Of a stretch of 64,000 bases of DNA, positions 3,601 to 59,826 are shown piece by piece. How positions within the stretch are numbered: position 1 is the first letter of the stretch; each line of letters starts with the position of its first letter. Location of the stretch: the NCBI GenBank assembly GCA_029964075.1, contig CM057146.1:9629501-9693500 (forward strand). The letters run 5' to 3'. The translations under genes and the position numbers were made by a program. The DNA comes from Patiria pectinifera (taxonomy: Eukaryota; Echinodermata; Asteroidea; Valvatida; Asterinidae). The notes beneath the pieces are model-generated. The model saw nothing but the letters and a program-made list of their open reading frames with translations, did no database searches and was not told the origin of the DNA.

Positions 3601-4624
3601 CTTCCTAAAAGTTACAATCGCGTTATGTACTCATGAGGATGTGTGCACGCCACTATTGTGTTATCCTTTGGTAGTTGAATGTTTGAACGTGGCGGTGTAT
3701 TAAAAGCTAATTTATGTAATGAATAATCACAAATTAAAAGTGTGACGAAGCTCTGAAATATCTTATTTACAAGGTTTCGACATTTTTTCTTCATTTTTGA
3801 TTTACTATGGTACTTCCACTTTAAGTGACACACCATTAATACGCTAGCAGTTTTCAAATGTACAATATGATTAAAACTAGCATAATATCTGTCGAATAAT
3901 AATAATAATATTACTATATAATTCCTAATACCAACGTTTATTTTACCAGAAAATACTTTGAAAACCTTGCACAACTTTCTGAAAACAAGTATCCGCGAAA
4001 TACTACTTTTTGGGGATTGCTGCACAAAGGAAAAACTTGATTCACAGGATGAACTTCTAAAACCTTAAACATTGGTCGTTTTTGTTCGCGTTCCTATGAC
4101 AGTGATCCACTGCCTTCTAATCGAAAGAAAGAACAAGATCTAATAATGAATTGATTTCGGACTCACCTTCAAACCAGTCTCAGAGTTCAGAGAGATTACA
4201 TGTCACAATATCGATATTAGAAGAGAATGCCAGTATGCAAAGATTGTTGTGAGTCGAACTAACCCTTTTTCCAAAGTGGGTCAAATCACGATGTCGGGCG
4301 CAAGCCGAAAAGCAACTCCAAAAAGTTTCGGTACCGAAACGATAGCATTCAAACCTGCCGGCCGACCAATGAAGTACCTTTGTGTAGCCATCTTTCATTC
4401 AATGGTACCCGTACAGCAAAGCTTGTGGCCGGACCCTTGAACAACTCTTTCTAAAATAAGGCGGCATTCAAACCTTTCTTTGATGACCATCAAAATAGCT
4501 GGACAGTCACTGTGCTGTGGTTAGAAAATAATCCCTTCCAGTCAAGAGCCAATACATAAATGTCAAAGCCGTTTTGATGCAAGTAAAGACACGCCCTTTG
4601 CTGTAACGTCTGTGAATTTGTTTT
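3601..4624. other. Region 3' of the lectin gene, no gene seen
   Basis: Contains an (AAT)n-like stretch at ~3897-3910. Likely holds the lectin 3' UTR on the minus strand just below 4625, but no canonical AATAAA was found close by. Confidence 0.4.
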
Positions 4625-5164
4625 TCACGGCGAGTCGCTGACGAAGCGCCCGTTTGCGTTGGCTTGCATACATCGTACGGGAGGCTGAACAATCTTCTTG
4701 CAGACAGGATACTTGGTGTACCTTTTGCAGGACCCCGACCCCCACTTCCCTTCACCCATTAAGAGAAACCTCACACACTGTTTGTATCTATTCATTTTGG
4801 GGTGGCCCGGTGCCCAGTTGTAGAACTTGAGTTCCTCAGTGCCATCGGAGCACACGAATTCTCCGTCAGTAGACACACGGTAGCAGCCAAGCCAAAGCCC
4901 GCGCTCGGGCATAACCCTTGGCGCAGATCGTTCCACTACCATTTGCCAGACGAAGTCATTCTCAGCCCGAGAATGAGGTACGACCAGGCTGCTGCCTCTG
5001 TCTTGGCAGAAGTTATCGGCTTCCGTCCAAGACATGGGTTCTTGGAAAAGTCCGTAGCATGCTCGGTTCCACTGCTTCCAGCCCGAAGGACAGGCACCCG
5101 CCCCAGTCGAAAATGCTGCCACGCCGATCGCAAATGTCATCAGAAACTCACACCGACCTGCCAT
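4625..5164 (-). CDS. Secreted C-type lectin domain protein, single exon
   Basis: Encodes 179 residues as one uninterrupted reading frame. I start at the ATG at 5164-5162 (MAGRCEF...); the open frame runs ten codons further upstream but only to a GTG. Residues ~1-25 form a hydrophobic signal peptide ending near GAGA-CPSGW. Residues ~25-160 are a C-type lectin-like domain: CPSGW, ACYG, SWTEADNFCQ, LVVPHSRAENDFVW, WLGCYR, FYNWAPGHP, QCVRFL, GSCKR and YPVCKK carry the conserved cysteines and the helix/WLG landmarks. The usual Ca2+/sugar motifs (EPN or QPD, and WND) are not seen; APGHPK and KWGS stand in their places, so classical Ca2+-dependent sugar binding is doubtful. Family members are extracellular recognition or coelomic defence proteins. 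An extra cysteine follows the domain (PVRCMQ). No intron, TATA box or obvious poly(A) signal was identified. Family assignment is firm; ligand unknown. Confidence 0.85.
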   Translation of the reverse strand: MAGRCEFLMTFAIGVAAFSTGAGACPSGWKQWNRACYGLFQEPMSWTEADNFCQDRGSSLVVPHSRAENDFVWQMVVERSAPRVMPERGLWLGCYRVSTDGEFVCSDGTEELKFYNWAPGHPKMNRYKQCVRFLLMGEGKWGSGSCKRYTKYPVCKKIVQPPVRCMQANANGRFVSDSP

Positions 5165-5559
5165 CTTTCTCAGTGTGGAGAAGTATAGTCTCACTGGTAT
5201 CGAGCAGTTTCTTTACCCGCGTTTGTTTGATGTCTGAGCGGTTTGACTGAAGTTCGTGCAGCTTCAAATCAGGTTCAGATAGTGTGTACAGTTGTACAGG
5301 TAGGCCTATATGGTGTTGAATAATCACCGAGGGAATTTGGCCGTGTAGGCCTATAAAATTGCACCAAAGTTAGCCTCGGCCTCGGTTCTTCTTGCTGAAT
5401 AATTGCATCGTATGATTCGCCATAATATAGCTTTATTGTTGCTACAGCTATGATTCCCTCGCGTATACACGCAGGTTCACATTGCAACGGGGAAGAAAAC
5501 AAATATGCTAGATGTAATTTTCTGCATCAGCAGTTATTGTTCAGTCGCCATTTCATAAT
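5165..5559. other. 5' flank of the lectin gene
   Basis: Should contain the lectin 5' UTR and promoter on the minus strand. No TATA box or other defined element is evident. Confidence 0.35.
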
Positions 5560-5568
5560 GGCCGGGTG

Positions 5569-5956
5569 GCGTAAGTTTTTTTCCTAGGAGGGTTAGGGGC
5601 AATGTCATGAATAATTCAGTTTTTCCTTTGAATCATTGCAAGACTTAGGTTCTCGTTCTATTTTCCCTTTAATTTAAAATTATCTCAGTGATGAATTTGG
5701 AGAAGAAAAATAGCTGATGAAAATGAGCAGCGACGACGTGGATTCGAACCAGGGATCTTTGTATCCATAGCTCATCTCGCTATCCACTAGGCTACTGTGT
5801 GGTAGCTCGACGACAACCGTTCTTTAAAATGCTTTAATGTATTGTAACTAGTTGAGTAACTAACAACAATGCTGTTGATGTCATTGTCCGTTCTCATGGA
5901 TAAACATGAATTATTCGTGACATTGCCCCTAACCCTCCTAGGAATAAAAATTACGC
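5569..5956. mobile_element. 388-bp foldback transposon with 9-bp target duplication
   Basis: GGCCGGGTG lies directly outside both ends (5560-5568 and 5957-5965). The termini GCGTAAG-T-run and A-run-TTACGC are inverted, and the arms contain CCTAGGAGGGTTAGGGG on the left and its complement on the right, continuing to GAATAATTCA. About 48-bp inverted arms with a 9-bp duplication suggest a Mutator-like or similar non-autonomous element. It carries a tRNA-like sequence in its interior. Confidence 0.8.
5734..5803 (-). repeat. tRNA-like sequence inside the foldback
   Basis: On the minus strand TAGCCTAGTGGATAGCG resembles a pol III A box and D arm, and GGTTCGAATCC is a perfect B box 35-40 bases on. 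Stem pairing is imperfect (one mismatch in the T stem; no clean anticodon stem), so this is a tRNA-derived element or tRNA pseudogene. Confidence 0.6.
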
Positions 5957-5965
5957 GGCCGGGTG

Positions 5966-6704
5966 CGTGTGACTTTGATTAGCTTCTCCTTATACTTCTC
6001 CTTAGATCACGAAATGAGGCTAATTGAACGCTGTGGGTTTGAGACCAGTAAATAAACTGCCATAAACCCCAATGATAAATGCCCTCACTTCAGAAACTCA
6101 GGAAAAATATTCACAACTCTTTGAGGTGTTCGAGACACACATCAAATTAAAGCTTCTTTCAGCATCATTCCATTTTTTTCATCATTCAGTTTTTTTGGGG
6201 GTAATCCGATGTCTTTTGGGAGAAATCTCCATCCGAAGATGATCGATATCACCCTTTTAAAATGAATGGCCATTTTGAAAAAACGATGCCTACGCTCCAT
6301 TGCAAAGTAGTGCGCTTTTAGGGCCCAATTTCATCCAAAATTTCACAGAAATACAAGCTCACAGTCCTGTGCACGGCTGCCACCCTTCTTTTTTTTACAA
6401 ACCTTTAAGTTCATGGCCCACAAAATGCTCTAATCCCGAAGAATTTGAGGGAATGCAAATCGTGATTTGGCCGACAGTACATGGGTACTTTCGGGCATAT
6501 TTACTGATCTGCACCCCGTGACGTATTTTACTGGCATTCTGAAAAAAATTAAGGTCAAAAGTTGCTGTGTGATTGTCTACGGAATAGCGCCTTACACAGC
6601 AAGGATCTACAATATGCGAGCAGGTTCGGCGATTAATTATGCAAAACGAGACTTGTACAATGTATACTAAAAAAAACACATGGCAGCCAAATTTACCAAT
6701 AAAA
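5966..6704. other. Intergenic DNA, no gene seen
   Basis: Open frames at 6300-6679 overlap on both strands without motif support. No structured repeat was recognised. Confidence 0.4.
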
Positions 6705-6900: not shown

Positions 6901-7041
6901 TCCTTATTCTTGGCCTTCTTGGTTAACCCTCCGACGCAGAAAGCCCATTTAGTAACACACCCACAGTAAGGGGTCCCCCGGGACCCAAATATTTAGCGCC
7001 ACGGTTTGAGGCTACACAACACTGTATCCACATGAACACAT

Positions 7042-7334
7042 GGCCATGGCCCCCCCCCCCCAAAAAAAAACACACGAAACCATTTTTTTTTTATGTGACA
7101 TCGCAATAAAGGCAAGCAATGAGTACACCACCATCTTTTCCTAAAAAAACCCATTGGTGTAAGTGGTCAGAAATTGCCTCAGATCGCACCACAGAGCATC
7201 TAGAATCCAAACAATTTTCGGGGCCCTTAAGCGGGCCCCTAACCCCACGCCGTAATTTTTTTGACCCACTTTTTTGGGGGACCAAATTTTGTTTGGCCCC
7301 CCCCCAAAAAAATTGTGTTCTGGATCCGCCCTTG
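7042..7334 (-). mobile_element. hAT-like short element, CAAGGGCGGATCC family (copy C)
   Basis: In minus orientation it begins CAAGGGCGGATCCAGAAC and shares with the copies at 37625 and 39833 the core GCGTGGGGTTCGGGGCCC, GATTCTAGATGCTCTG and the GAAAAGATGGTGGTGTACTC stretch. The distal end stops at GGCCATG before the second terminus, so this copy is truncated. Confidence 0.7.
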
Positions 7335-8411: not shown

Positions 8412-11400
8412 CTGAAAAGGGGATGATGATACAATGTATGAAAATATCAACGGAGTCTATAAATCCATTAGGACATCATATTCGAAGGTGAAAATATAAA
8501 ATTCTTCCTGATTTGAGCTGCGATGAACTATAATCGTCACTAACAAGATAAAATCATATGTTAATGTACCCGTCAGGAGACTTTTTATCATTAGGTATAC
8601 CATAGGAAGACACCGGACATTAGGGAGACGTTTCAATGTCTCCATAATGGGATAACTCAAATTTAGGGGCAAATTTTAGTGTCGCAAACAGGCTAGATCG
8701 ATCGCTCGTGGTCCAAATCAGAAATACATGTATAACAGAATTCGTTGGGGTAGGATAAGGGACAATTTGGGTACTAGGGGTCAAAGTAAAGTTGCAAAAA
8801 TGTGTGCACAACCCCATGGGGATGCCATCTTAAAGGCCCTGTCACACTGCCACGTCCATGCATGTAGTTCATATTGCGTTCATCAATGATTCATGCATAT
8901 TGCAACCTTAAACGTACGTGTGACGTCAGCAGCCAAACGCGCGGCGTGTATTAATTAATACTCGGGCCAAAACGGGCGATTATCATTGAGTCTTCACATT
9001 TTGAACTGCATAGACGCAGTAGACGCAGAGGAGACGCGCTGTCCTGATGCATGCACGTCCGTTGAGTTCTCGCGACGGCGCGCCCGTCTGCGCCTGCGCG
9101 TTGCCATTACGTCACGGCCGTTCGCGAGGAGTTTGCACAGATTCCTTACCGCGTTCTGGTCAAAACGCCGAAGCGCGGCGTTTGTTTTGTGCATTATGTC
9201 CAAAACGAACGCGGCAGTTTGGCGTTCAGCGAAGTTCTTGGAGTTCCTCTGAAATCCTCAACTAGTATCAAAGAGTCAACACACCGTCATCTGCGTTCCC
9301 ACCGCGTTTTAATCAAGTTTCTTGGTCGCAGTACGATCTCCATGCCAGAACGTGACAGTGTGACAGGGCCTAATAAGGTACGATTTCCGTAAAAATGATA
9401 TTGATCATGATCATCACTTGGGCTGTTTTCATGAAGCTGCTAGGGACAGAAATTTGCTAGGTATAGAACATATTTGCTCTGCAAAAACATGTTACCAAAC
9501 GAATCTCATTCAATGGAATTAATTAAGGGCTGGTTCTCAGCTCCACCATGCCTAGCACTAGTCTGAAAATCTAGGACTCTCAATACCGTGTATGAGAGTC
9601 CCAAAACTTAAGGTATTGAAAACATGCAACACAAGAAAATAGACTGGCACCTGAAACAACCAGTCAAACAACTCTTCAGTACTGCATAAAATTGAATTGA
9701 GTTTCAAATTTGAGTTGGTTGGTGAAGGACTTCGTCTTTGCCTCAAGACCATTTTTGGAAAAGTTTGTCAGCCAGATTTCGTTTTGCCACGTTTCAGCAC
9801 TTGAGCTCCCAGTCTGGCTTAATAGTACACCTTAGCACAGGCCTAAATCTGCTAAGCAATAATGTTGTGTTTACCAACTCCAAGAAATTGGACATCAACC
9901 CAGTTCTTACCTGGAATAAATCCGGCGAGAGGTCGAATTAACCCAGACAGAAATCCCATCCAGCCAAAGGCGTCCGCCATCTTGTCGACCCCGAGCAACT
10001 CTTTCACCATGAAGTCGACCATGGTGAACACCATACCCATACTTGAGACAAAGAGGGCGGCGTTGGCTGACACGGACCACCATGACGTCACCCAGGGGTC
10101 AATTAGAAAGGAGACGGCAACCAGACCGACACTCACCATCATAGCGCTGGTACTCGTCATCTTCTCTTTATACAAAGCTATGCCTCCGAGCGTGAAGGTG
10201 ACCAACTGAAACACCGCTGCAACCGATACCATGCCCGCGGCTTCTTCGTTGGAGAACCCAATGGCAACAACGCTTGGAACAAAATAGATATACCACGCTG
10301 ATTGGCTGATTCGAGTAGTCACGACAATTAGAGTAATCTCCCAAAAGGTTAGGCTCTTCATCAATGAAATGTCCAAAGCTCCCCAGATTTTCTCCAAAAA
10401 AGATCTGAATGACGCAAGAGTACAGTCGGTATGTTTATCCGATTTGTAAACCGGTCGGGGCTGATGACGGGAAGAATCAGGAAGCGACTGGTAGCCGACT
10501 CTTGCTTCGGACCACTTCGGTACAGGTTTTAATAGGGCACCGCTTACAGTGAGATGGGTACCAATCGATCCGACCAGGAGCATGGCTCCTCTCCAACCAT
10601 AGGTGTTGAGGAATAGCTGTACCAGAGGCGGTAGACAGACGAGACTAAGAGAGGAACCTATCCTGGCGACCCCTGACGCTAGTGCAAAATCCTTCACATC
10701 GAAATGCTCACCGAGGGAAGAACGGGTCAGAACGTTGGCTAAACACTGCCCTAAAGCTGAAGATACCCAAATTAAGAAGACAATTAAACACTAATTTTAT
10801 TAGGAACAATGCCACGATCAAGTGACAGCAAAGAAGGAATGTTCGTTACCACAAATTTAAATCAGGGCTGTCTAAAAGGCTACAATCCAGTTGTAAATTG
10901 AAACTCGTTATGGTATACTACTCACAAGCCTTTCAGGAGAATTTAAGGGTTTTCAACTGTGCGGCACTATGTTGACAGAACAGCCTTCGCTTCTGACAAA
11001 ATATTGTACAGTAGCGTTTGGAGTGTATCAACGAATTTTGCACGACGCTGTTTGACTTTTGTGGATCCCCCAACTATCTGTCCCCGGGCAGTTCAGAACA
11101 GACAGGTGTTTACTTGACTATTTCCCCAGTGACACTATCTTTAACATTTTTAATGGGAAAAATGTGTTTGCCAAAATGATGGCATCAAGGATCATATTGT
11201 TTCATTTTTTCCAGCGAGCCAGATACTACAGGGTGAGTCAAAAAAGCGGAACCCAAACACCAAAAATTATATTTCATATTTAAAAAATATGCCGCACCAA
11301 AAATAATTATGACTGGAAAGTCAATTTCATAAGCTACTTTTGGATGAAAAAAAGTACTGAAATTGGTCAATGCGTTCAAAAATATCACTATTTAAACACA

Positions 11401-22039: not shown

Positions 22040-22575
22040 CGTTACGTAGTAAGGTTCATGTTTTTAACCCAGCTTGTCTTTGAATTCAGCTCATTCGGAT
22101 TTGAAATCGTTTGTACATGAGCACGTCTGAACTTTAGCTAGTATAAACTTCAGGTCATTCGGACTTCAACTCGGACTTGAGCTCGTTTGTACCTGCTTGA
22201 GCACGCCTAGACTTTAGCTAGTAAACTCGAGGTGATTCGGACTTCAACTCGGACTTGAGCTCGTTTGTACCTGATCGAGCACGCCTAGACTTTAGCTAGT
22301 AAACTCGAGGTCATTCGGACTTCAACTCGGACTTGAGCTCGTTTGTACCTGATTGAGCAGTGAACACACCTAGACTTAAGCTAGTAAACTCGAGGTCATT
22401 CGGACTTCAACTCGGACTTGATTTCGTTTGTACTTGAGCACGCCTAGACTTTAGGTAGTAAACTTGAGGTCATTTGGACTTCAACTCGGACTTGAGCTCG
22501 TCTGTACCTGAGCACGTCTTGACTTTAGCTCGTTAAACTTGAGGTCATTCGGACTCATCCAGACCTGAGGTCTTT
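22040..22575 (+). repeat. 74-bp minisatellite, array 1
   Basis: Tandem units containing CTCGAGGTCATTCGGACTTC, GGACTTGAGCTCGTTTGTAC and CGCCTAGACTTTAGCTAGT. The period is 74 bp, with small length changes (CTGATTGAGCAGTGAACAC variant). First block of unit 1. Confidence 0.85.
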
Positions 22576-25352
22576 TGGAGTTCGTTTGTCGGGACAACTG
22601 AGATTTCGAGGAACGCTTGGTCATATCATCCCCATTTTGAAAGGTAGGCCTTTGTTTTAACATTTCATATTTTGTCATAGCTAAGTGCAGGTTATCACGT
22701 TGACAATAACGAATATTTAACTTTTATCCAGCATAACAACGGAAAACTGCAACCCTCATGAAAACTGGATTTTATTTAGATTTTTGTCTAGCCCCTAAAC
22801 ATATCCTCCCTGCCGGTACACTGGCATTATCGAGTCCGATGGGGAACGGGGCCATTCTACCCTGCGAGAACTGAATGACGTCGGGCCCCAAATAATTTAA
22901 ACTGTGTAAAAGGGATTGTTTGAAAACTAAACGTGGTCAGCGGTCTCAATCGATGTTTCATTCGATGTCACATCGGTTGGACAGGCCCAACCCGAAAGTT
23001 TGACCCGCGGTAGTCACCCTTATAGATGAACTGACCAACACTCAGAACATAGCTAATGTGAAGCATTTCTTGATGTGATACAATATTTGTTCATATTTTA
23101 ACGCAAAGTTTTGTCTTTGTTTCCTAAACCAAATTTCCTCAACCCTCATTCACAATTGATATAATATACATAATACTCCAACGACTGCGTCCCGGTCGGT
23201 GTTTCTTGAACTAGTCATCTTGGGGTAGCTTCCTGGTCCCGTGACTAGTAGTGCTTGTGACGGTCCGTTGGTCCGCAAATGCGGGGCAATTTCTTAAAAT
23301 TTTAACAAATGGTTTTTAAATTTAAAAAAGTCAATTTCTATTTTATGTGCTACTAAAGGGTGCCCTTTCCGGTGACATCGCCATCATTTTTTCTTGGTGT
23401 TTGGCATTTCCCACTAAACACTGAATTTCACAAATGACTTGTTTGTACTAAAATGCTTCCATTTTCGAGTTAAATTCAATTTTCATTGCACTTCCAATAA
23501 CACCGGAAGTGAAGGTCAAGCGGTTTTGTGCCCGGGAACAAAATGTTGCTGAAGGCACCGTCCACCACCTCGCAACAAACGATAACGACACTCAGATTCA
23601 GTTTGTGAGAGAGAGTTAAAAGTATTTTGTCTAAGTCGGCCCTTAAATCGCTTGTAATTTGATATCTGATGACGTCATGATGACGTCACAAAATCCATTC
23701 CATCTTCGAACCCATGTCCAAGTTCTACCAGGTTTTATTATGACCACGTCAACCGTTCGGAAGAAATCTTGGTTGTTTTGACTGAGGCTCATTTCTGTAT
23801 TTTTAATTCAACTTACTTTGACTTTTCGGTCATACCAAAAACTGTTTCGGAGGAGAAAACCTGCCGAATATAGACTTTTTACTGATAAATTCATAATAAT
23901 GCACGCATGCGCATGAATGGGCCTGGCGACAAAAAGTGAAAGTAGCCCACTGTAATGTACAGGGGTCAAATTGTTGTCATCTGCTCTCAATTTCTCCAGG
24001 ATTTGTCATTTTTTTAATTTAGAAAAGGCCCTAAAATCGTAATAGGTATAACTTTCTGGTCTCAGTTCTGGTCTCATTTGGGTTTTTTTTTTGGGGGGGG
24101 GGGCACGAACAATGATCTTTAAAAATTGCTTGTGTCCCGTGCGCACAAGGGCGACTATCAGCAGGGTTCCTTTCCGCACCGGTGAGAAAAATAAACATGC
24201 TTGGAAGATTCCCGGTTCAACAACAAAACACTAGCGATCATCTTTTCAAATGTCGGGTTTTGAAATACCATCGAGAGTAATGTTGCAACTTTTTGCCGCT
24301 GACCGATATAGTGCAGCGTGATTTTCGCGTTGCAGGCTTCCGGGCAAGTACACCCGATCCCTGGTTAAACGTGACCGTCAGTGCACGGTGAAATCGATTT
24401 GTGCCGGCGTATCCCTTTCGCCTCGTGCGCACGAGACGAAAGCAATTTTTTAAGTTTTTATTTTGTGCCCCCAAAAACCACTAAAGCCAGAAAATAATGC
24501 ATATGACGATTTTAGGGATTTTTCATGCAACAAGTACAAATTTCCGTGAAATTTGCGTTCATGAAACCAAAAAACTATTTGGATTTTATATTCCAGCAAA
24601 ATATAATCAAATTGCTTTCTTTCTTTACATACAAAATGTACAAATTTCCACTGTAGCTCTTCGTAAATAAAACAAATAATGCAATAAACGTACAATAGCT
24701 CAAGCATTAAAATTCACTAAAGTAGCAGTCTGGCTGAGCCCTCTCCTTTGGCTTCTCTATATCGATAACTTCACACCAATTATTTCTCAAAATCATCGAG
24801 CTGGTCTTTGCCCTCTCCTCGGAATCTCATCTCAAAATCTGCTCCATTCCAAACTCGTCTTGCTTATAAACCCCGGTAGAAATATCAAAGCGAGGCCACA
24901 TGGTCCAAGAATTCGGTATGCATTCAAAAACAAACTAAGTATTCGACAATCAAAATGATGCAAAGTATAAACACGCTACTCAATAAACCTTTTCACTGTG
25001 AAATAATAATTTATGCCCTAAAAATGGTTTTGAGGCAAGAAGCGAAATTGGTCCATTACAATGTACAGCGGTACAAACAAACAGAAAAGCTCCTGAAATC
25101 GTCATGGGCATTACTTTCTGGCCAAAGTGGGCTTTTTGGGGGTCAAAAAAATCACAACTTAAAAAAATGCTTTCTTCCCGAGCGACTATGAGGGCGAAGG
25201 TAATCAGCAGGGCTCCTTTCAGCACGAGTGAAAATTAGTAACTGTGCACTTCGCGGTACCATCCACCAAAATAACGGGACGAATCGCGCCGCTGAATCGC
25301 GCCGGGCTGAACCGCCGGCTGAATCACGGGCTGCGCAGGCACAAACGATGTA

Positions 25353-26019: not shown

Positions 26020-26929
26020 TGTCACCGTGAACGAACCGTCACGTTGACCGGGCACTGGGCGTACAGGCCCGCTGGGCGCCACGCCAAAAACCACGCTACG
26101 CTACATCGGTCATTATTATAAAAAATAAAGCAATAAAGAAAATAAAGTCCATACAATTAAAAAAGAATTTCAAAAATATTTTCCAAAGTTAATTGTCAAA
26201 TTGCATCTTTCGATAGTGATTGACGACACTGTTGCAACTTTTTTCCGCTCACCAATATATATAGCGCAGCGTGTTTTTTTCGTGTGGCTCACGCCGGGCC
26301 TGTACGTCCAGTACCCAGTCAATGTGACTGTCCATGCACGGTGACATCGTTTGTGGCCCGCAGCCCGTAATTCAGCCCGCGGTTCAGCCCGGCGCGATTC
26401 ATCACCGCGTTCAGTCCGAAATTGGGAGATGGAACACCGAAGTGCACAGTTACTCATTGTCACTCGTGCGGAAAGGAGCCCTGCTGATTGCCTTCGCCCT
26501 CGTGTGCACGGGACGAAGGCAATTATTTAAGTCTTCATTTTGTGCATCAAGAAAGAAGCGAGAAGTCCTTGGAGAAATTGCGAAAAAAACAACACACCCG
26601 AATGTTTGTACCCCTGTACATTTTTGATGGACCTTTGTCGCTTCTTGCCTCAAGACCATTTATGCGCATGCGCAGTATTTATATTTATCATTTTTAAGTA
26701 ACAGGTCTATGACATCCCAACTGGAGCCGAACACACATTCTTAGACGGTTCAATAACTTTGACAAAAAATGTTTGGGCGTGGAAGCCCCAAGAAAATATA
26801 ACTTCGTATCTCAACTGCTAGACGTGTGTTCAGCAGAACAACAAAAATCCCTGCCACGTAAACTAAATTCGTGTTTGTCATTTTAAACAGAAATTACGTT
26901 GAAAACAATATATCACCTTGTGACACATG

Positions 26930-30040: not shown

Positions 30041-33000
30041 GTAATCTTGCAAAGCCCTCTCCTTTGGCTTCTCCATATCGATAAATTCAAACCAATTATT
30101 TTTCAAAATCATCGAGGCTGGTCTCTGCCCTCTCCTTGAAATCTCTTCTCAAAATCTGCTCCATTCCAAACTCGTCTTGCTTATAAACCCGCGAGAAATA
30201 TTAAAGCGATGCCGCATGGTCCAAGAATTCGGTATGCATTAAAAAACAAACTAAGTATTCGACAATCAAAATGATGCAAAGTATAGACACACTACTCAAT
30301 AAACCTTTTCACTGATAAATAATAATTTATGTCAAATAAAAATGGCATTGAGGCAAGAAGCGAAATCGGTATATTGAAATGTAAAGGGGTACAAACATTT
30401 GGGTCATTTTCTTCAGGATTTCTCTCTTTTTTTTTAAGGAAAGTCCCTAAAATCGTCACAGGCATTACTTTCTGGCAAAAGCGGGGTTTTTCTTGGGGGG
30501 GGGGGTACAAAAAATCAAAACTTTAAAAATTGCTTTCTTCCCGAGCGAATATGAGGGCGAAGGCATCCAGCAGGGCTCCTTTCCACACGAGTGACAATGA
30601 GTAACTGTGCACTTCGGACTAAACGCGGTGATGAATTGCGCCGGGCTGAACCGCGGGCTGAATTATGGGCTGCGCAGGCACAAACGATGTCGATGTCACC
30701 GAGCACGAACCGTCACGTTTACCGGGCACTGGGCGTATACAGGCCCGGCGCGCGCCATGCGAAAAATCACGCTGCGCTATATCGGTCAGTGGCAAAAAGC
30801 GGCAACATCCTCGATCTCGATATTTTTTACTTATCTCTCTTTCTTCATATAAAAATAAAGCAATAAACAAAACAAAGCCCATACAATTAAAAAAGAATTT
30901 TAAAAATATTTTCCAAAATTAATTGTCAAATTGTATCTTTCGATAGTGATTGACAACACTGTTGCCACTTTTTGCCGCTGACCGGTATATATAGCACAGC
31001 GTGTTTTTTTCGTGTGGCTCCCGCCGGGCCGGTACGTCCAGTGCCCGGTCAATGTGACTGTCCATGCACGGTGACATCGTTTGTGGCCCGCAGCCCGTAA
31101 TTCAGCCCGCGGTTCAGCCCGGCGCGATTCATCACCGCGTTCAGTCCGAAATTTGGAGATGGAACACCGAAGTGCACAGTTACTCATTGTCACTCGTGCG
31201 GAAAGGAGCCCTGCTGATTGCCTTCGCCCTCTTGTGCTCGGGACGAAGGCAATTATTTAAGTCTTCATTTTGTGCATCAAAAGAAAAACGAGAAATCCTT
31301 GGAGAAAGAAAAATTCCCGAATGATTGTACCCCTGTACATTTTCGATGGATCATTTTCGCTTCTTGCCTCAAGACCATTTATGCGCATGCGCATCATTTA
31401 TATTTATCATTTATAAGTAACAGGTCGACACTGGAGCCGACCACACATTCTTAGACGGTTCAATAACTTTGAAAAACTGTTCGGGCGTGGCAGCCCCCCG
31501 CCCCCCCCCCTCCAATAAAAATAATTTTGTATCTCAACTGCTACATGCGTGTTCAGCAGAAGTCACAAAAATCCCTGCCACGTAAACTAAATTCGTGCTT
31601 GTCATTTTAAACAGAAATTACGTTGAAAGAAAATATCACCTTGTGACACGTGACCAGCGGTTTCATTGGATGATTCATTAAAACCAACAATTGTGTTGTC
31701 AGTCAGTCAGGAGCACAATAACGTTTTCCAATAACGAATTTATACCAAGGGGTAAATAAGCATTATTACTTAAAGTAGATGTACAGGGTTTATCATCCCC
31801 ACCCCAAACTAGAATGAGTTAGTTCTTGAAAGTTATGAACTTGGGCATTGTCAGTAAGGTTGAATCACCGCAATTGCGTCCATGACTAAGAATCATTTAT
31901 TTCAAAACAAAGACTAAAATTCTTTATTCACGTTGTTCCGATTCATTGGTAAAATGAGTTGTCAAGTGTCGTCGTGTTGACGTCATCATATGTTAGGCGA
32001 CACCATCCTAAAGGTCAATTTCTCAAAGTCGTATATCTACAGAACCACAAGCCGCATTGGCTTACAACTTTGTTGGTGAATAGTCGGGCACGAGTTCAAA
32101 ATGAACAGTGGAGTGACGTCATGATGACGTCTTCAAGTGATTTTAAACGGATTTCCAATCTTTTTATAATTTTTATGAGTTTAAACAAATACAGAAAAAT
32201 GCTTTGGAGGCCAGAATCAGACAAAGGAAACATATTTTGTCACCGAAAAGAAGATCCGACTGAAAATAGCAAAAAAGAATCGTAATTGCCAACCCGGGAT
32301 TCGCACTCCGGACCGTTCGTACGCCAAGCGAGAGTATTAACCACAAGCCAACGCAGCTTGCACGACCGCGCACACTGAAACATGACGTCCGTAAAAGAAA
32401 CATGTACATCTTATCATTAATCAAGCCGCCCAAACATTCTTCACCCCAGATACCTGCGCGATATACATTAACTGTCAAAAATCCCTGTGATAATTACAAA
32501 TATGCCCACTTAAAGGAAAAAAAAAGTATCAGGCCAAATACTCCCGACTCTTTAGGTAGGCCCTACGTGCGTGTTTCGTGCACACATCAAAGTAAAGTTA
32601 CTTTAAAAGCCTGTCATTATGTTCAATTCTTAGACGTTTATTGGTCACTTTCGGGAATGAAATATCCATCCAGAAATGATCACCTCTACAAGTAGTCCAA
32701 TATCCCATCGCCGTTAAAAAAAAACCTGTGTTCCTACGACCCAAGTAGCTCAGTTTAAGGGTCCGATTCTTTCACAACGGTAGGCCTACGACACCACACA
32801 ACGCACGGCAGCCAACCTTCTGTTTCTGAAACCCTCCAATTGTTGGCCTCCAAAATGCTCAAATAACCGAAAATTTAATTTTTGTGAGTAAAATTAAAAC
32901 CAGCAAATCATCCGGAGCCACGAATCAAACGAAGACATAAGATTTTTGTGACAGGAACGAAGATCCGACAGAAAAAAATAGATAAAAGGAAAACATAATC

Positions 33001-33479: not shown

Positions 33480-34015
33480 AGCGACGCCGTTACGTAGTAA
33501 GGTTCATGTTTTTGACCCAGCTTGTCTTTGAATTCAGCTCATTCGGATTTGAGATCGTTTGTACATGAGCACGTCTGGACCTTAGCTAGTATAAACTTCA
33601 GGTCATTCGGACTTCAACTCGGACTTGAGCTCGTTTGTACCTGATTGAGCACGCCTAGACTTTAACTAGTAAACTCGAGGTCATTCGGACTTCAACTCGG
33701 ACTTGAGCTCGTTTGTACTTGAGCACGCCTAGACTTTAGCTAGTAAACTCGAGGTCATTCGGACTTCAACTCGGACTTGAGCTCGTTTGTACTTGAGCAC
33801 GCCTAGACTTTAGCTAGTAAACTCGAGGTCTTTCGGACTTCAACTCGGACTTGAGCTCGTTTGTACTTGAGCACGCCTAGACTTTAGCTAGTAAACTCGA
33901 GGTCATTCGGACTTCAACTCGGACTTGAGCTCGTCTGTTCCTGAGCACGCCTTGACTTTAGCTCGTTAAACTCGAGGTAATTCGGACTCATCCAGACCTG
34001 AGGTCTTTTGGAGTT
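33480..34015 (+). repeat. 74-bp minisatellite, array 2
   Basis: Same unit as array 1; the spacing of GAGCACGCCT at 33721, 33795 and 33869 gives exactly 74 bp. The three central units are almost identical, suggesting recent local homogenisation. Confidence 0.88.
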
Positions 34016-37000: not shown

Positions 37001-37624
37001 CAAACTAAGTATTCGACAATCAAAATAATGCAAAGTATAAACACGCTACTCAATAAACCTTTCCACTGTTAAAAACTAATTTATGCCCTAAAAATGGTTT
37101 TGAGGCAAGAAGCGAAATCGGTCCAATACAAATGTACAGCGGTACAAACAAACAGAAAAGGCCCTGAAATCGTCATGGGCATTACTTTCTGGCCAAAGTG
37201 GGCTTTTTTTGGGTAAAAAAAAAATCACAACTTAAAAAAATGCTTTGTTCCTGAGCGACTATGAGGGCGAAGGGAATCAGCAGGGCTCCTTTCAGCACGA
37301 GTGAAAATTAGTAACTGTGCACTTCGCGGTACCATCCACCAAATAACGGGACGAATCGCGCTGCTGAATCGCTCCGGGCTGAACCGCCGGCTGAATCACG
37401 GGCTGCGCCGGCACAAACGATGTCGATGTCACCGTGCACGAACCGTCACGTTGACCGGGCACAGGGCGTACAGGCCCGGTGGGTGCCACGCGAAAAATCA
37501 CGCTGCGCTATATCGGTCATTATTATAAAAAAATAAAGCAATAAACAAAACAAAGTCCATACAATTAAAAAAGAATTTCAAAAATATTTTCCAAAGTTAA
37601 TTGGTAAATTGTATCTTTCGATAG

Positions 37625-37951
37625 CAAGGGCGGATCCAGAACACAATTTTTTGGGGGACCAACAAAATTTTTGGACCCCCATAGTAGGGCAAAAAAAATT
37701 ATGGCGTGGGGTTCGGGGCCCGCTTTAAGGGCCCCCGAAAACAAATTGGATTCTAGATGCTCTGTGGTGCGATCTGAGGCAATTTCTGATCACTTTAACC
37801 AATGTTTTTTTGAGGAAAAGATGGTGGTGTACTCATTGCCTGCCTTTATTGCGATGTCACATACCCCCCCCCCCAAAAAAAAAACGGTCTTGTTTTTTTT
37901 TGGGGGGGGGGCATGGCCCCCTTTGGCCCCCCCCCCCCGGATCCGCCCTTG
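37625..37951 (+). mobile_element. CAAGGGCGGATCC element, copy A
   Basis: 327 bp with both termini intact (CAAGGGCGGATCCAGAAC left, GGATCCGCCCTTG right). Core GCGTGGGGTTCGGGGCCC, GATTCTAGATGCTCTGTGG and GAAAAGATGGTGGTGTAC. Left end of the composite. Confidence 0.85.
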
Positions 37952-38398
37952 CCGGCAAACCGCTGATCTGATTTAGTCAAAAACTAAAATGAAAACTGGA
38001 AGGAGGACAAGAGATGATAGGAGGGAGTGAGGTAAGAAGGTGTAACTGGAGCACTTATGAGGTGTAGTGAAAATTGCTAGAGGGAGTTAGGATTCTTCCA
38101 TCGATGTGCAGTAGCGATCACAAAGAGGTGTGACAAGATACCGACGCGATGGGACTATTCACCGACGTGTAGCACACCCAAAGGCGTTAGAAACAGCCTC
38201 GTACTCCATCAACCGATGTCCGCGCCGGACCCGACGATCTATATCGCCTCGTAGAAGAAGAGGTTACTCGGGGAATGGCAACAAATTCAATCAGGCCTCG
38301 TACGTGTCGCTAAAACAATTAATTTACGGTATCGCTTCAACTGTCGCCGGCTCCTGAGGCGATGATGCTGCCTCGGCCCATGGCTCATCATCGTTGCA

Positions 38399-38723
38399 TT
38401 ACGTTGCCCTCTGTCTCTCCTCGTTCATCGCATATGCATCACGCGCAATATTAACGGAAATTGTTTTACCTAAGTTTGTTGTGTGTTTCTTCAACGCCGA
38501 TGAGCTTTTCGGGCCGATGTTTTTCAACGTGCCGTTTCTCTCGTTGTAAGTTGACGTAGCCGCACCTTTTTTTCGTGACACTTTGGGCGGGAAAGACCAG
38601 ATAGATGACATGTCGATATTTGGCTGACGGGTTTGGGTAGCCGGCGGGTTCGTTTGCATTTGTGATATTGACTTGTGTTTCTTTGTTAACGGTTATTTTT
38701 TGGAAGTCCGGACAACTCGACAA
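38399..38723 (-). other. Exon-like segment inside the composite element
   Basis: A minus-strand ATG at 38659 opens a frame (MQTNPPATQTRQPN, IWSFPPKVSRKKG, KSSSALKKHTTNL) that reaches AACTTAG|gtaaaa, a plausible splice donor at ~38469. The composition (Ser/Thr/Lys-rich, balanced codons) and raised CpG of 38100-38720 differ from the AT-rich surroundings. It might be a captured promoter and first exon. No family is recognised and chance is not excluded. Confidence 0.25.
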
Positions 38724-39832
38724 GCACGTTCTGGTGATAATATTGTGCGGATGGCGTTTAGGTTTCGGTTTTAGGGCAGTAAGTCCAATTTAAATTGATT
38801 GTACTTGCCCGACTTGAACGTGTTTGCTTCTGTTTATTTTCAATTGGCTTTTATTTACTTGTCTTTTATTTGAAAATAGATTTTAAGATTTTTGAACGAC
38901 AACTTTTTCCTTAGTGCAACCGTAAATGCTCTATTATTTCTGCCTTCGTTTTAAGGTTTCCACACCAGGGTTTTTGCTGTATTTCGGTTCGTTGTGAGCA
39001 CCTTAATATATTTATGCTCTCTTGTAATTGAAAGGTAATAAGAACCAATCGATGTCAGGTTATTTGTCCTGATAGTGTCAGTTAAACAAGGATTCTAGAT
39101 TGCAAGATCATGGGAAACACATCAAAAATTACTTGCCGTTTAACACATTTGCAACAGAAAGTCTTTTCCATGCATGTTATAAATGATCGGGTACCATTGA
39201 AGTAGGGGTATGCCTACCACTGAAGTCGTTTTCTGTTTACATGGAGATGTGAAACCGATTTCTCGCGTGAATGTTCGTGAAATCTCTCGAGATTGAAGTG
39301 GAGAATTTTGCTGCGCCTTTGTTTTCAGTGTCTTGACACTTTCCTTGAATCTTAATTCATTCTGTTTCCACATTGGGCCAACTTCATTCATGTGGCCGTG
39401 AAGGATAGACAGTCCATTTCGTTTTAATTTTCAAAAATAGTTTTTTAATTAGTGAATGACTGACGTCATTGAATGCAACTGTCTAAAATGTGAAAAAAGT
39501 CTTGGAATTCTATTTTTTTATCTGACGTACTAATAAATATTGTATTTATTAACAAGAATAACTTGCATGGTTCACTTAAATATTGTTTGCTTTCATAAAA
39601 AAGGATGAAAAATTAGTCATAAAAACAAGTTTGACTATAATGATCTATTTCCCACAAAGATTCAACGATAATTGATGTCTGTTCATGAAAGCTTCTTTCT
39701 CCTCATACCTATTGCGGTAATTAATTGTATTTTTTTTTTTTCATTCTGATTCGTTTTTTTAATCAACTTTAGGACAAAAAAACCCCACGAAGACTACAGT
39801 ATACCCGCTGCGCCACACTCATGAGTTGTGCA

Positions 39833-40135
39833 CAAGGGCGGATCCAGAACACAATTTTTTGGAGGCACCCCCAAAAAAGTGGGTCAAAAAAATTACGGCG
39901 TGGGGTTCGGGGCCCGCTTAAGGGCCCCCGAAATTTTTTTGGATTCTAGATGCTCTGTGGTGCGATCTGAGGCATTTTCTGATCACTTTAACCAATGTTT
40001 TTTTGAGGAAAAGATGGTGGTGTACTCATTGCTTGCCTTTATTGCGATGTCACATAAAAAAAAAATGGTCTCGTTTTTTTTTTTTGGGGGGGGGGGGGGC
40101 CATGGCACCCTTTGGCCCCCCTGGATCCGCCCTTG
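39833..40135 (+). mobile_element. CAAGGGCGGATCC element, copy B
   Basis: 303 bp, complete, same orientation as copy A and clearly its sibling; differs mainly in homopolymer length and in the stretch after the left end. Right end of the composite. Confidence 0.85.
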
Positions 40136-40640
40136 TTCGATAGTGATTGACGACAGTGTTGCAACTTTTTTCCGCTCACCAATATACATAGCGCAGCGTG
40201 TTTTTTTCGTGTGGCTCCAGCCGGGCCTGTACGCCCAGTGCCCGGTTAATGTGACTGTCCATGCACGGTGACATCGTTTGTGGCCCGCAGCCCGTAATTC
40301 AGCCCGCGGTTCAGCCCGGCGCGATTCATCACCGCGTTCAGCCCGTAATTTGGAGATGGAACACCGAAGTGCACAGTTACTCATTGTCACTCGTGCGGAA
40401 AGGAGCCCTGCTGATTGCCTTCGCCCTCGTGTGCTCGGGACGAAGGCAATTATTTAAGTCTTCATTTTGTGTATCAAGAGAAAAACGAGAAATCCTTGGA
40501 GAAATTGAGAAAAAAATTCCCGAATGTTTGTACCCCTGTACATTTTCGATGGACCATTTTCGCTTCTTGCCTCAAGACCATTTATGCGCATGCGCATCAT
40601 TTATATTTATCATTTATAAGTAACAGGTCTATGACATCCC

Positions 40641-43154: not shown

Positions 43155-43560
43155 AGCTCATTCGGATTTGAGATCGTTTGTACATGAGCACGTCTGGACC
43201 TTAGCTAGTATAAACTTCAGGTCATTGGGATTTCAACTCGGACTTGAGCTCGTTTGTACCTGATTGAGCACGCCTAGACTTTAGCTAGTAAACTCGAGGT
43301 GATTCGGACTTCAACTCGGACTTGAGCTGGTTTGTACTTGAGCACGCCTAGACTTTAGCTAGTAAACTCGAGGTCATTCGGACTTCAACTCGGACTTGAG
43401 CTCGTTTGTACTTGTGCACGCCTAGACTTTAGCTAGTAAACTCGAGGTCATTCGGACTTCAACTCGGACTTGGGCTCGTCTGTACCTGAGCACGCTTTGA
43501 CTTTAGCTCGTTAAACTCGAGGTCATTCGGACTCATCCGGACCTGAGGTCTTTGGAGTGC
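43155..43560 (+). repeat. 74-bp minisatellite, array 3
   Basis: Same unit as array 2 with fewer repeats. Forms the start of unit 4. Confidence 0.85.
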
Positions 43561-47310: not shown

Positions 47311-49014
47311 TAAAGAAATAAACAAAACAATGCCCAGTAAATGAAAAAAAAAAGAATTTAACAAATATTTTCCAAAGTTACTTATCAAATTGTATCTTTC
47401 AATGGTGATTGACGACACTGATGCCACTTTTTGGCGCATTGTAAGGGTTTCAGGGGCTTGGTTTTCATATTCCTCGTTCATATCAGAACTCTCTATACCA
47501 TTTTGGGAAATGGTTAGGGATAACAAATTATCAGAAACTTTATGGCCAGTTTTGTTTTCATCTCTAGGGGGCACATTAATGCTCGAGGGCCACGAGGGGG
47601 CACATTTATGTCCGCAAAAGGGGCACTGGGGTAAATCTGGGTAGGGGAAGTCCCCCACCCCCCCGGTTTCGCCGCCCCCGCGCTGACCGGTATATTTAGC
47701 ACAGCGTGATTTTTCGTGTGGCTCCCGCCGGGCCTGTACGTCCAGTGCCCGGTCAATGTGAATGTCCATGCACGGTGACATCGTTGTGGCCCGCAGCCCG
47801 TAATTCAGCCTGCGTTTCAGCCCGGCGCGATTCATCACCGCGTTCAGCCCGTAATTTGGAGATGGAACACCGAAGTGCACAGTTACTCATTGTCACTCGT
47901 GCGGAAAGGAGCCCTGCTGATTGCCTTCGCCCTCGTGTGCTCGGGACGAAGGCAATTATTTAAGTCTTCATTTTGTGCATCAAGAGAAATGCGAGAAGTC
48001 CTTGGAGAAATTGCGAAAAAAAACACCCGAATGTTTGTACCCCTGTACATTTTTGATGGACCTTTATCACTTCTTGCCTCAAGACCATTTATGCGCATGC
48101 GCATTATTTATATTTATCATTTTTAAGTAACAGGTCTATGACATCCCAACTGGAGCCGACCACACATTCTTAGACGGTTCAATAACTTTGACAGAAAATG
48201 TTTGGGCGTGGCACTAGCCCCAAGAAAATATAATTTTGTATCTCAACTGCTAGACGTGTGTTCAGCAGAAACCACAAAAATCCCTGCCACGTAAACTAAA
48301 TTCGTGTTTGTCATTTTAAACAGTAATTTTGTTCCAAAATAATTATCACTGTGTTACACGTGGCCAGCGGTTTCATTGGATGATTCATTAAAAAAGACAG
48401 TTGTGTTGTCAGTCAGTCAGGAACACAATAACGTTTTCCAATAACGAATTGATACCAAGGTATTAAATAAGCATTATTACTTAAAGTAGATGTACAGGGT
48501 TTATCATCCCCACCCAAATCTAAGAATGAGTAAGTTCTTGAAAGTTATGAACTTAGGCATTGTCAGTAAGGTTGGATCACCGCAATTGCGTCCATGCCGT
48601 CATATGTGACTAAGAATCATTTATTTAAGAACAAAGACTAAAATTCTATATTGTCGTTGTTCCGATTCATTAGTAAAATGAGTCGTCAAGTGTCGTCGTG
48701 TTGACGTCATCATTATGTTAGGCGACAACCATCCTTAAGGTCAATTTCTCAAAGTCGTATATCTACAGAACCACAAGCCGCATTGGCTTACAACTTTGTT
48801 GGTGAATAGTTCGGCACGAGTTCAAAATGAACAGTGAAGTGACGTCATGATGACGTCTTCAAGTGATTTTAAACAGATTTCCAATATTTTAATTTTTTTT
48901 ATCAGTTTGAACAAATAAAGAAAAATACTTTGGAGGCCCGAATCAGACAAAGGAAACATATTTTGTGACCGAAAAGAGGATCCGATTAAAAAATAGCAAA
49001 AAAAAAATCGTAAT

Positions 49015-50432: not shown

Positions 50433-51290
50433 CAAGGGCGGATCCAGAACATTTTTTTTGGGGGGGGGGAGGGGGGGAAACAAAATTTTGTTCCCCGAAA
50501 AAGTGGGTCCATACATTTTCCACCCCCAATTTGATTTGAAGAGCAAGGGGTCACATTAGGACTCTTCATGGCATTGGTGGATGGTTGCGCAATTTTAATG
50601 CTGCCCTCCGAGAATCTCATTACTCAGTCATTGCGGTTGGCAGTTTTTTGCGACTTACAAAAAAAATAAACAAAATAACAGCAAAAAAAACAAAAAACTA
50701 AACAGAACAAAACAAAAACAGTACGTAGGAAAAGCGTTCGCGGAAAAATTGACGTTGTATTTTAAAGGGTGTCAATCGCGTCTCAAAACATAGTGGGGAA
50801 CATACCTTGATCAGAAGTAGTTTATTTTTTTCTATTCTAGACGCTCTGTGGTTCGATCTGAGGAAATTTCTGACCACTGTAACCAAATTGTCTGAGCAAC
50901 AGATCATCATTTAAACATCATTTGAGTTTGGAGTCATTGAATCAGGTCCCTTGAGCTATATAATGAAATATAGGGGGACATGTCGTATCCCCCCCCCGTC
51001 CCCACCGATTGACGCCCATAGGTACTTTTACAGTTTGGACATAGTTATCCTGACTCCAGAACCAAAAATAATGACGCGCCAGTACAGTTGCGGCAGGTCA
51101 TGCAAAATATTCTTGAATTATATCCAGTATTGATTTCAATAGAATAAGATGTGTTGCTTTTTTTGAGTTTTGTGGGTGGTATACATAGTGGCTGCTTTTG
51201 TTGCGACGTCACTTTAAAAAAATGTTGGGTGCGGTGGGTTTTTTTTTTGGGGGGGAGGCATGGCCCCTGTGTCCCCCCCCCGGATCCGCC
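50433..51290 (+). mobile_element. Long CAAGGGCGGATCC-family element inside minisatellite 4
   Basis: Left end CAAGGGCGGATCCAGAAC is perfect; the right end GGATCCGCC is degraded (GGGGC instead of CTTG). The 858-bp interior contains CTCTGTGGTTCGATCTGAGG and a GAGCTATATAATG stretch related to the 26930-27760 element, linking the two families. It splits the 74-bp array of unit 5. Confidence 0.7.
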
Positions 51291-51605
51291 GGGGCATCAA
51301 CTCGGACTTGAGCTCGTTTGTACTTGAGCACGCCTTGACTTAAGCTAGTATAAACTCGAGGTCACTCGGACTTCAACTCGGACTTGAGCTCGTTTGTACC
51401 TGAGCACGCCTAGACTTTAGCTAGTAAACTCGAGGTCATTCGGACTTCAACTCGGACTTGAGCTCGTTTGTACCTGAGCACGCCTTGACTTAAGCTAGTA
51501 AACTCGAGGTCACTCGGACTTCAACTCGGACTTGAGCTCGTTTGTACCTGAGCACGCCTTGACTTAAGCTAGTAGAAACCAGAGGTCTTATGGAGTTCGC
51601 CTTTT
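51291..51605 (+). repeat. 74-bp minisatellite, array 4 (right part)
   Basis: Right-hand part of the array in unit 5; the left remnant (AACTCGAGGTCATT) ends at 50432 where an 858-bp element is inserted. Confidence 0.8.
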
Positions 51606-55541: not shown

Positions 55542-57227
55542 TAAAGAAATAAACAAATCAAAGCCCATTAAATGAAAAAAATATAATTTAACAAATATTT
55601 TCCAAAGTTAATTATCAAATTGTATCTTTCGATGGTGATTGACGACACTGATGCCACTTTTTGGCGCATTGTAAGGGTTTTGGGGCTTGGTTTTCATATT
55701 CCTCGTTCATATCAGAACTCTCTATACCATTTTGGGAAATGGTTACGGATAACAAATTATCAGAAACTTTATGGCCAGTTTTGTTTTCATCTCGAGGGGG
55801 CACATTAATGCTCGAGGGCCACGAGGGGGCACATTTATGTCCGCAAAAGGGGCACTTGGGTAAATCGGGGAAGTTCCCCCAGCCCCCCCCCCCCCCGGTT
55901 TCGCCGCCCCCGCGCTGACCGGTATATTTAGCGCAGCGTGATTTTTCGTGTGGCTCCCGCCGGGCCTGTACGCCCAGTGCCCGGTCAATGTGACTGTCCA
56001 TGCACGGTGACATCGTTTGTGGCCCGCAACCCGAAATTCAGCCCGCGGTTCAGCCCGGCGCGATTCATCACCGCGTTCAGCCCGTAATTTGGTGGATGGT
56101 TCCGCGAAATGCACAGTTACTAATTTTAACTCATGCGGAAAGGAGCCCTGCTGATTGCCTTCGCCCTCGTGTGCTCGGGACGAAAGCAATTATTTAAGTC
56201 TTCATTTTGTGCATCAAGGCAAAAGCGAGAAGTCCTTGGAGAAATTGCGAAAAAAAATTCCCGAATGTTTGTATCCCTGTACATTTTAGAAGGACCTTTT
56301 TCGCATCTTGCCTCAAGACCATTAATGCGCATGCGCATTATTTATATTTATCATTTATAAGTAACAGGTCTATGACATCCCAACTGGAGCCGAACACACA
56401 TTCTTAGGCGGTTCAATAACTTTGAAAATCTGTTTCGGCGTGGCAGCCCCCCCCCAAACAAAAAATGTGTATCTCAACTACATGCGTGTTCAGTAGAAAC
56501 CACAAAAATCCTGCCACGTAAACTAAATTCGTGTTTGTTATTTTAAACAGAAATTACGTTGAAAAAAAAATATCACCTTGTGACACGTGACCAGCGGTTT
56601 CATTGGATGATTCATTAAAACCAACAATTGTGTTGTCAGTCAGGCAGGAACACAATAACGTTTTCCAATAACGAATTTATACCAAGGGGTAAATAAGCAT
56701 TATTACCCAAAGTAGATGTACAGGGTTTATCATCCCCACCCCAAACTAGAATGAGTTAGTTCTTGAAAGTTATGAACTTGGGCATTGTCAGTAAGGTTGA
56801 ATCACCGCAATTGCGTCCATGACTAAGAATCATTTATTTCAAAACAAAGACTAAAATTCTTTATTCACGTTGTTCCGATTCATTGGTAAAATGAGTTGTC
56901 AAGTGTCGTCGTGTTGACGTCATCATATGCTAGGCGACACCATCCTAAAGGTCAATTTCTCAAAGTCGTATATCTACAGAACCACAAGCCGCATTGGCTT
57001 ACAACTTTGTTGGTGAATAGTCGGGCACGAGTTCAAAATGAACAGTGGAGTGACGTCATGATGACGTCTTCAAGTGATTTTAAACGGATTTCTAATCTTT
57101 TTATAATTTTTATGAGTTTAAACAAACAAACAAAGAAAAATACTTTGGAGGCCCGAATCAGACAAAGGAAACATATTTTGTGACCGAAAAGAAGATCCGA
57201 CTGAAAATAGCAAAAAAGAATCGTAAT

Positions 57228-59326: not shown

Positions 59327-59826
59327 NNNNNNNNNNNNNNNNNNNNNNNNNNNNNNNNNNNNNNNNNNNNNNNNNNNNNNNNNNNNNNNNNNNNNNNNNN
59401 NNNNNNNNNNNNNNNNNNNNNNNNNNNNNNNNNNNNNNNNNNNNNNNNNNNNNNNNNNNNNNNNNNNNNNNNNNNNNNNNNNNNNNNNNNNNNNNNNNNN
59501 NNNNNNNNNNNNNNNNNNNNNNNNNNNNNNNNNNNNNNNNNNNNNNNNNNNNNNNNNNNNNNNNNNNNNNNNNNNNNNNNNNNNNNNNNNNNNNNNNNNN
59601 NNNNNNNNNNNNNNNNNNNNNNNNNNNNNNNNNNNNNNNNNNNNNNNNNNNNNNNNNNNNNNNNNNNNNNNNNNNNNNNNNNNNNNNNNNNNNNNNNNNN
59701 NNNNNNNNNNNNNNNNNNNNNNNNNNNNNNNNNNNNNNNNNNNNNNNNNNNNNNNNNNNNNNNNNNNNNNNNNNNNNNNNNNNNNNNNNNNNNNNNNNNN
59801 NNNNNNNNNNNNNNNNNNNNNNNNNN
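59327..59826. other. Assembly gap (500 N)
   Basis: Exactly 500 undetermined bases, a conventional gap size. It interrupts the macrosatellite at a copy of block d, so the true array is probably longer than shown. Confidence 0.97.

Follow-up and report, generated by a model that had tools for sequence, protein, structure and literature searches.

Two complete MITEs and the 1.9 kb of host DNA between them as a probable natural macrotransposon in the genome of Patiria pectinifera

Results

Layout of the composite insert

The window analyzed in this study is a stretch of 64,000 nucleotides from contig CM057146.1 (here C18) of the Patiria pectinifera genome (assembly GCA_029964075.1, positions 9,629,501 to 9,693,500). 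Minus-strand frames in the window encode a C-type lectin domain (4628-5212) and an MFS transporter domain (9855-10790). A repeat array, the 120 longest listed self-matches of which are 73 to 97% alike, occupies positions 21600-59326 and includes inverted sub-repeats (for example, 37424-37497 versus 40203-40276, 86% complementary). The array is followed by the single N run of the window (59327-59826, 500 bases), which lies outside the composite described below.

One unit of the array carries a 2,511-bp insert (37625-40135) that is bracketed by an 8-bp duplication, TTCGATAG, at 37617-37624 and 40136-40143, as had been reported in a preliminary description of the same DNA. A perfect match of 8 bases has a chance of approximately 1 in 65,536, given four bases that are equally likely. 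Within the insert, two complete MITEs, copy A on the left and copy B on the right, enclose 1,881 bp of other sequence. This agrees with the same description, which had recognized two complete elements of about 300 bp in the same orientation (327 and 303 bp; Table 1). The CAAGGGCGGATCC / GGATCCGCCCTTG ends are intact in both, and alignment of the two copies over 297 sites gave 259 identities (87.2%). The description had also noted that the inner ends are without a matching duplication, and this was likewise found: CCGGCAAA, which follows A, and GTTGTGCA, which precedes B, each agree with the outer TTCGATAG at 2 of 8 bases. The composite has the features of a macrotransposon in that elements of the same family stand at both outer edges with the cargo between them and in that a single target-site duplication (TSD) encloses the whole block, with A and B individually having none. 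A history in which A and B independently entered a segment that the array already contained was rejected, because each element would bring its own duplication and the outer duplication of TTCGATAG would be left unexplained.

When 3 of the 8 frames in the interior were compared with Pfam, no gene was detected above the cut-off; a sub-threshold match to Lycopene_cyc reached 18.5 bits against a cut-off of 27. Rfam had no match at gathering scores anywhere in the window.

Five copies of the target can be read in the window, four of which are empty and one of which contains the composite; none contains a lone MITE. The earlier statement that sister units keep the single empty site was borne out by comparison, with the exact TTCGATAG present once at 26209 and once at 30939. 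Two other sister units have diverged forms of the site. Further matches at 24281, 35988, 45236, and 53511 cover the right side only and are uninformative on the target site.

Table 1. Positions of the parts of the composite insert and of the empty target sites in the window
Feature	Position	Strand	Remarks
Left TSD copy, TTCGATAG	37617..37624		Present once at the sister-unit sites 26209 and 30939
MITE copy A, complete, 327 bp	37625..37951	+	Ends CAAGGGCGGATCC / GGATCCGCCCTTG
Interior, 1,881 bp	37952..39832	+	Begins CCGGCAAA, ends GTTGTGCA; matches C3:21593215-21595112
MITE copy B, complete, 303 bp	39833..40135	+	Shortened near left end, as is the L005 element
Right TSD copy, TTCGATAG	40136..40143		Same B-TTCGATAG junction in L005
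Empty target site, exact TTCGATAG, sister unit	26209..26216		
Empty target site, exact TTCGATAG, sister unit	30939..30946		
Empty target site, diverged (TTCAATGG), sister unit	47398..47405		
Empty target site, diverged (TTCGATGG), sister unit	55628..55635		

The MITE family and its duplications

The family was searched for in the genome that contains the window (613.5 Mb, 1,020 contigs). First-look candidates numbered 3,384 with copy A as the query and 3,256 with copy B, totals that are not equivalent to confirmed copies because 40 candidates were scored per search. The flanks of 38 fetched rows (L007-L035 and L041-L049), whose ends were allowed up to 2 mismatches, served as a control; A, B, and the copy in a second array unit (L005) were excluded from the count as the objects under study. 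The flanking 8-mers agreed at 8 of 8 bases in 31 rows and at 7 of 8 in 5 and were unmatched in 2. Since L028 and L046 represent one place, the rows correspond to 37 distinct family places, and a duplication (7 or 8 of 8 bases) was present at 35 of them. Single members of the family normally have their own 8-bp duplication, and the unmatched inner ends of the composite therefore need an explanation.

The lengths of the elements (303 and 327 bp), their terminal inverted repeats (TIRs), the high candidate copy number, and the target duplication of fixed length are those of MITEs. Copies L007-L035 (n = 29) were 94 to 99% like their majority line, and inspection of these copies by eye gave no diagnostic subfamily letters for a chimeric A or B. 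Five copies (B, its counterpart in L005, L042, L049, and L044) are shortened in one stretch close to the left end, with differing letters, as if a small hairpin there were repeatedly lost. The same TSD is common to L022 and L030 and another to L042 and L049, both pairs being on C22; these shared duplications probably reflect segmental duplication. Two other relatives of the family are located in the window. One (50433-51292) is longer, approximately 860 bp, and has a perfect end on one side and an imperfect one on the other; its left flank, AGGTCATT, recurs at short spacing within the array at 22152-22542, 33600-33900, and 43219-43520. The other (7036-7334) is a minus-strand member from which one terminal repeat is absent.

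Both control rows with unmatched flanks are complete MITEs. L009 (C8:9989023-9989347) is flanked by TTTGGGCA and TGCGTAGC, each of which was found once within the surrounding 10 kb (L036, approximately 5 kb on each side), and there was no second MITE in this region that could be its partner. It is possible that L009 is half of a larger composite or that it arose through recombination between copies. L048 (C18:9764757-9765070; flanks TCCACCGG and TAAACCAT) shares its contig with the composite, from which it is approximately 95 kb away.

The name hAT is used here as a working label, an unproven assignment suggested solely by the 8-bp duplication and the terminal letters. Family members have the 8-bp target-site duplication of hAT elements; P-type and Merlin elements can likewise give 8-bp duplications. 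The target preference of hAT elements is nTnnnnAn. Among 33 distinct duplications, symmetrised, the frequencies of T at position 2 and of A at position 7 were 0.35, and those of T at position 3 and of A at position 6 were higher, at 0.41. The target letters appear to lean weakly towards the hAT pattern.

A source-like locus on C3

The preliminary description had suggested a search of the genome for the interior by itself. With positions 38000-39700 as the query, a search of the genome that skips very common words returned three matches, namely, the window, C3:21593263-21594986, and a 55-bp piece on C18 inside L005. The C3 stretch, which is continuous and without a MITE, was the one other near-full match to this query. 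Homology to the interior extends over C3:21593215-21595112 (positions 4216-6113 of the fetched sequence L004), a length of 1,898 bp versus 1,881 bp in the window. Of the 1,872 aligned sites, 1,813 are identical (96.85%), and the alignment contains 35 gap columns; the BLAST identity with gaps counted was 95.2%. Identity was even along the alignment, at 95 to 99% per 200-column block.

The inner 8-mers of the composite, CCGGCAAA and GTTGTGCA, form the first and last bases of the C3 copy, and beyond both C3 continues into other sequence. On the left, homology begins directly after the last base of A, and 0 bp of the end of A corresponds to the upstream C3 sequence. On the right, homology stops at the first bases of B, with a match of 2 bases (CA) that are also the first two of the MITE. 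The cargo of the composite matches a contiguous locus elsewhere whose edges fall at the inner element ends, as expected for a macrotransposon. No MITE was found in the 10 kb around the C3 copy, where a BLAST search with 37301-40500 matched nothing else. In this one assembly, the C3 locus has neither of the two MITEs nor a footprint. The C3 stretch, the one other near-full match in a search that skips very common words, has no TIR of the family, and no repeated 8-mer was seen at either of its edges; the possibility that the interior is itself an independent transposon was rejected for these reasons. The C3 edges fit what separate MITE insertions would leave once the block had moved off with both elements.

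The same edges bear on the formation of the composite as a Pack-TIR by gap filling or template switching, in which one MITE at TTCGATAG would have been broken and then patched with C3 sequence. In animals, single-copy Pack-TIRs, among which hAT predominates, are ascribed chiefly to this route, and the parental copies described in that work are without elements, as at C3 (PMC8277862). That parental copies are unlinked to elements is also brought forward there as an argument against end-bypass capture (PMC8277862). However, gap filling would split one element in two, and both MITEs of the composite are complete; the C3 homology terminates exactly at their intact inner TIRs; and the source is on another contig, with microhomologies of 0 and 2 bp. 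Gap filling is strongly disfavored by the completeness of A and B, and we consider it highly improbable.

A second array unit with the right part of the composite

L005, an array unit in reverse orientation, is located on C18, 203 kb away from the copy in the window. It contains the last ∼190 bp of the interior, followed by B, TTCGATAG, and the right flank. At L005 positions 2743-2746, the left flank is fused to the interior, and the end of that flank, MITE A, and ∼1.7 kb are deleted. Of the 182 sites that can be read in the window, L005, and C3, the window and L005 agreed against C3 at 7, C3 and L005 agreed against the window at 2, and the window and C3 agreed against L005 at 1. At two short indels, the window and L005 were alike by eye. 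The right flank of the composite was 96.6% identical to that of L005, versus 94.4% and 93.3% to those of the two units with exact empty sites. L005 shares with the window the right junction and 7 of the 10 variable sites, which points to one insertion that was duplicated later together with its unit. The shortening common to B and the L005 element is a weak marker of this relationship, because L042, L049, and L044 (3 of 38 rows) are shortened at the same place with other letters.

Interior sequence beside one element with its own duplication, the arrangement that the preliminary description had named as evidence against a composite, was not seen. In L005, a piece of the interior stands next to B without A, but the 8-mers on either side of B in this unit, GTTGTGCA and TTCGATAG, differ from each other.

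The repeat array and the 500-base N run that starts at 59327 are a setting in which an assembly artefact or a collapsed repeat might be expected, and the left junction, TTCGATAG-A-CCGGCAAA, was observed once. However, the right junction recurs in L005, at a distance of 203 kb and with several per cent divergence from the window, which makes an assembly error at this junction very unlikely. In addition, the outer duplication is perfect, and the composite is free of N. An artefact is the least probable of the explanations considered here.

Discussion

Probable movement of the block as one transposon

Comparison of the composite with the C3 stretch and the empty units suggests that the composite is probably a natural macrotransposon, in which the outer ends of A and B moved the block from a C3-like locus. 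Two MITEs of one abundant family would have inserted separately into a C3-like allele, in like orientation and ∼1.9 kb apart, duplicating CCGGCAAA and GTTGTGCA at the donor. A transposase acting in trans may then have paired the left end of A with the right end of B; if a single left end and a single right end, properly oriented, are enough for it, it would see a 2.5-kb element. The A-interior-B block would have been excised and inserted at TTCGATAG in one array unit, with duplication of 8 bp, and its inner flanks would have kept only the interior-facing copies of the old duplications, which would account for the unmatched inner ends. Later, the unit would have been copied within the array, and its descendant L005 would have lost the left part.

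Joining of the outermost ends and movement of the whole block was the first of two models put forward in the preliminary description, and the C3 edges make it the better supported of the two. The outer duplication, the empty sites, the two complete elements, the uninterrupted C3 stretch with its matching edges, and the right junction shared with L005 are read directly from the sequence. We infer a donor allele with two MITEs, the pairing of its outer ends, and which transposase was responsible. The donor allele must be one that is missing from the assembly, because the parental copy on C3 is without the elements; a C3 locus without MITEs fits a segregating insertion but does not prove one.

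The second model, a circle that recombines into a resident copy, was found to be less likely. A circle or ectopic template with a MITE and the interior, produced by recombination between A-like and B-like copies at the source, would have joined a lone MITE resident at TTCGATAG. Recombination predicts the same structure down to the final letters, and the thousands of first-look candidates in the genome would offer copies for it. The unmatched flanks of L009 and L048 could also stem from recombination between copies. There is a precedent in the bacterial MITESen1 composites, for which the text of PMC13367494 argues for a recombination route because single copies occupy the same site. However, recombination needs a double-MITE source as well, plus two extra steps, and the lone MITE that it requires was present at 0 of the 5 readable sites in the window, a small sample of the array. 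We consider this route unlikely.

Gene conversion is common between repeats and makes no duplication of its own. Conversion of a lone array MITE against a source locus with A-interior-B would be a further route to the composite. It would call for the resident MITE and the two-MITE source of the recombination model, in more steps than direct transposition, and we regard it as very unlikely.

Relation to known composite elements

Capture of host DNA by hAT-type elements in animals, macrotransposition in maize, and MITE-bounded composites in bacteria are already known. The maize Ac/Ds elements are hAT elements, and their macrotransposons were reportedly described by Huang and Dooner in 2008. Pairs of Ac are mobilized as macrotransposons according to PMC9910405, and the composite resembles the Ac/Ds cases outlined there in the linked pair, the movement of enclosed DNA by the outer ends, and the 8-bp duplication or footprint. 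Unlike in maize, the ends here are two ∼300-bp MITEs in an animal genome, their hAT identity is unproven, and the movement is read from sequence (PMC9910405).

For animals, macrotransposition has been proposed for AgaP2-P12MITE, a hybrid P-type MITE of Anopheles gambiae (PMC1562414). As outlined in that report, two nearby elements would move en bloc, and the duplications are also 8 bp long. AgaP2-P12MITE is a hybrid for which a deletion between the copies is inferred, whereas the composite has both elements complete and a MITE-free source-like stretch (PMC1562414).

A survey of 100 animal genomes detected 370 Pack-TIRs, 208 of which are hAT, the commonest class there (PMC8277862). The composite is like these in having host DNA with a parental copy between TIR ends of the same family. 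It differs from the single-copy Pack-TIRs of that survey, which are mostly ascribed to gap filling in one element, in that its cargo lies between two complete elements (PMC8277862). The preliminary description had called either route uncommon in an animal. With 370 Pack-TIRs on record (PMC8277862), this is too strong for the outcome; for the route, the literature matches listed included one proposed animal case (PMC1562414). In titles and abstracts of the open-access literature, a scope with most subscription literature outside it, there was among the matches listed no animal precedent in which both elements are complete and the source can be read.

Two complete elements also flank the cargo in large Drosophila elements bounded by foldback. 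Both Drosophila foldback and Sleeping Beauty belong to superfamilies other than that of the composite. In the Sleeping Beauty sandwich vectors of PMC4229213, a pair of complete elements likewise surrounds the cargo in an animal setting; these vectors are man-made, with the elements head to head and one inner end mutated (PMC4229213). The bacterial TIME-COMPs resemble the composite in that a pair of MITEs borders a segment that is moved as one block and is enclosed by a single outer duplication, and a circle model is raised for them (PMC13367494). They differ in being Tn3-family elements with 5-bp repeats on bacterial plasmids (PMC13367494).

Implications

It is doubtful that pairs of this MITE repeatedly act as composite transposons in this genome. 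If they do, any stretch of host DNA of a few kilobases between like-oriented copies could be shipped elsewhere, and L009 and L048, with their unmatched flanks, would each represent one half of another, larger composite.

The composite would be a rather complete natural case in which a non-autonomous pair mobilized host DNA as a single transposon in an animal genome, with the source-like stretch, the empty targets, the outer duplication, and a later descendant all readable. Because the composite does not fit gap repair, macrotransposition may be worth seeking as a route by which host sequences are duplicated.
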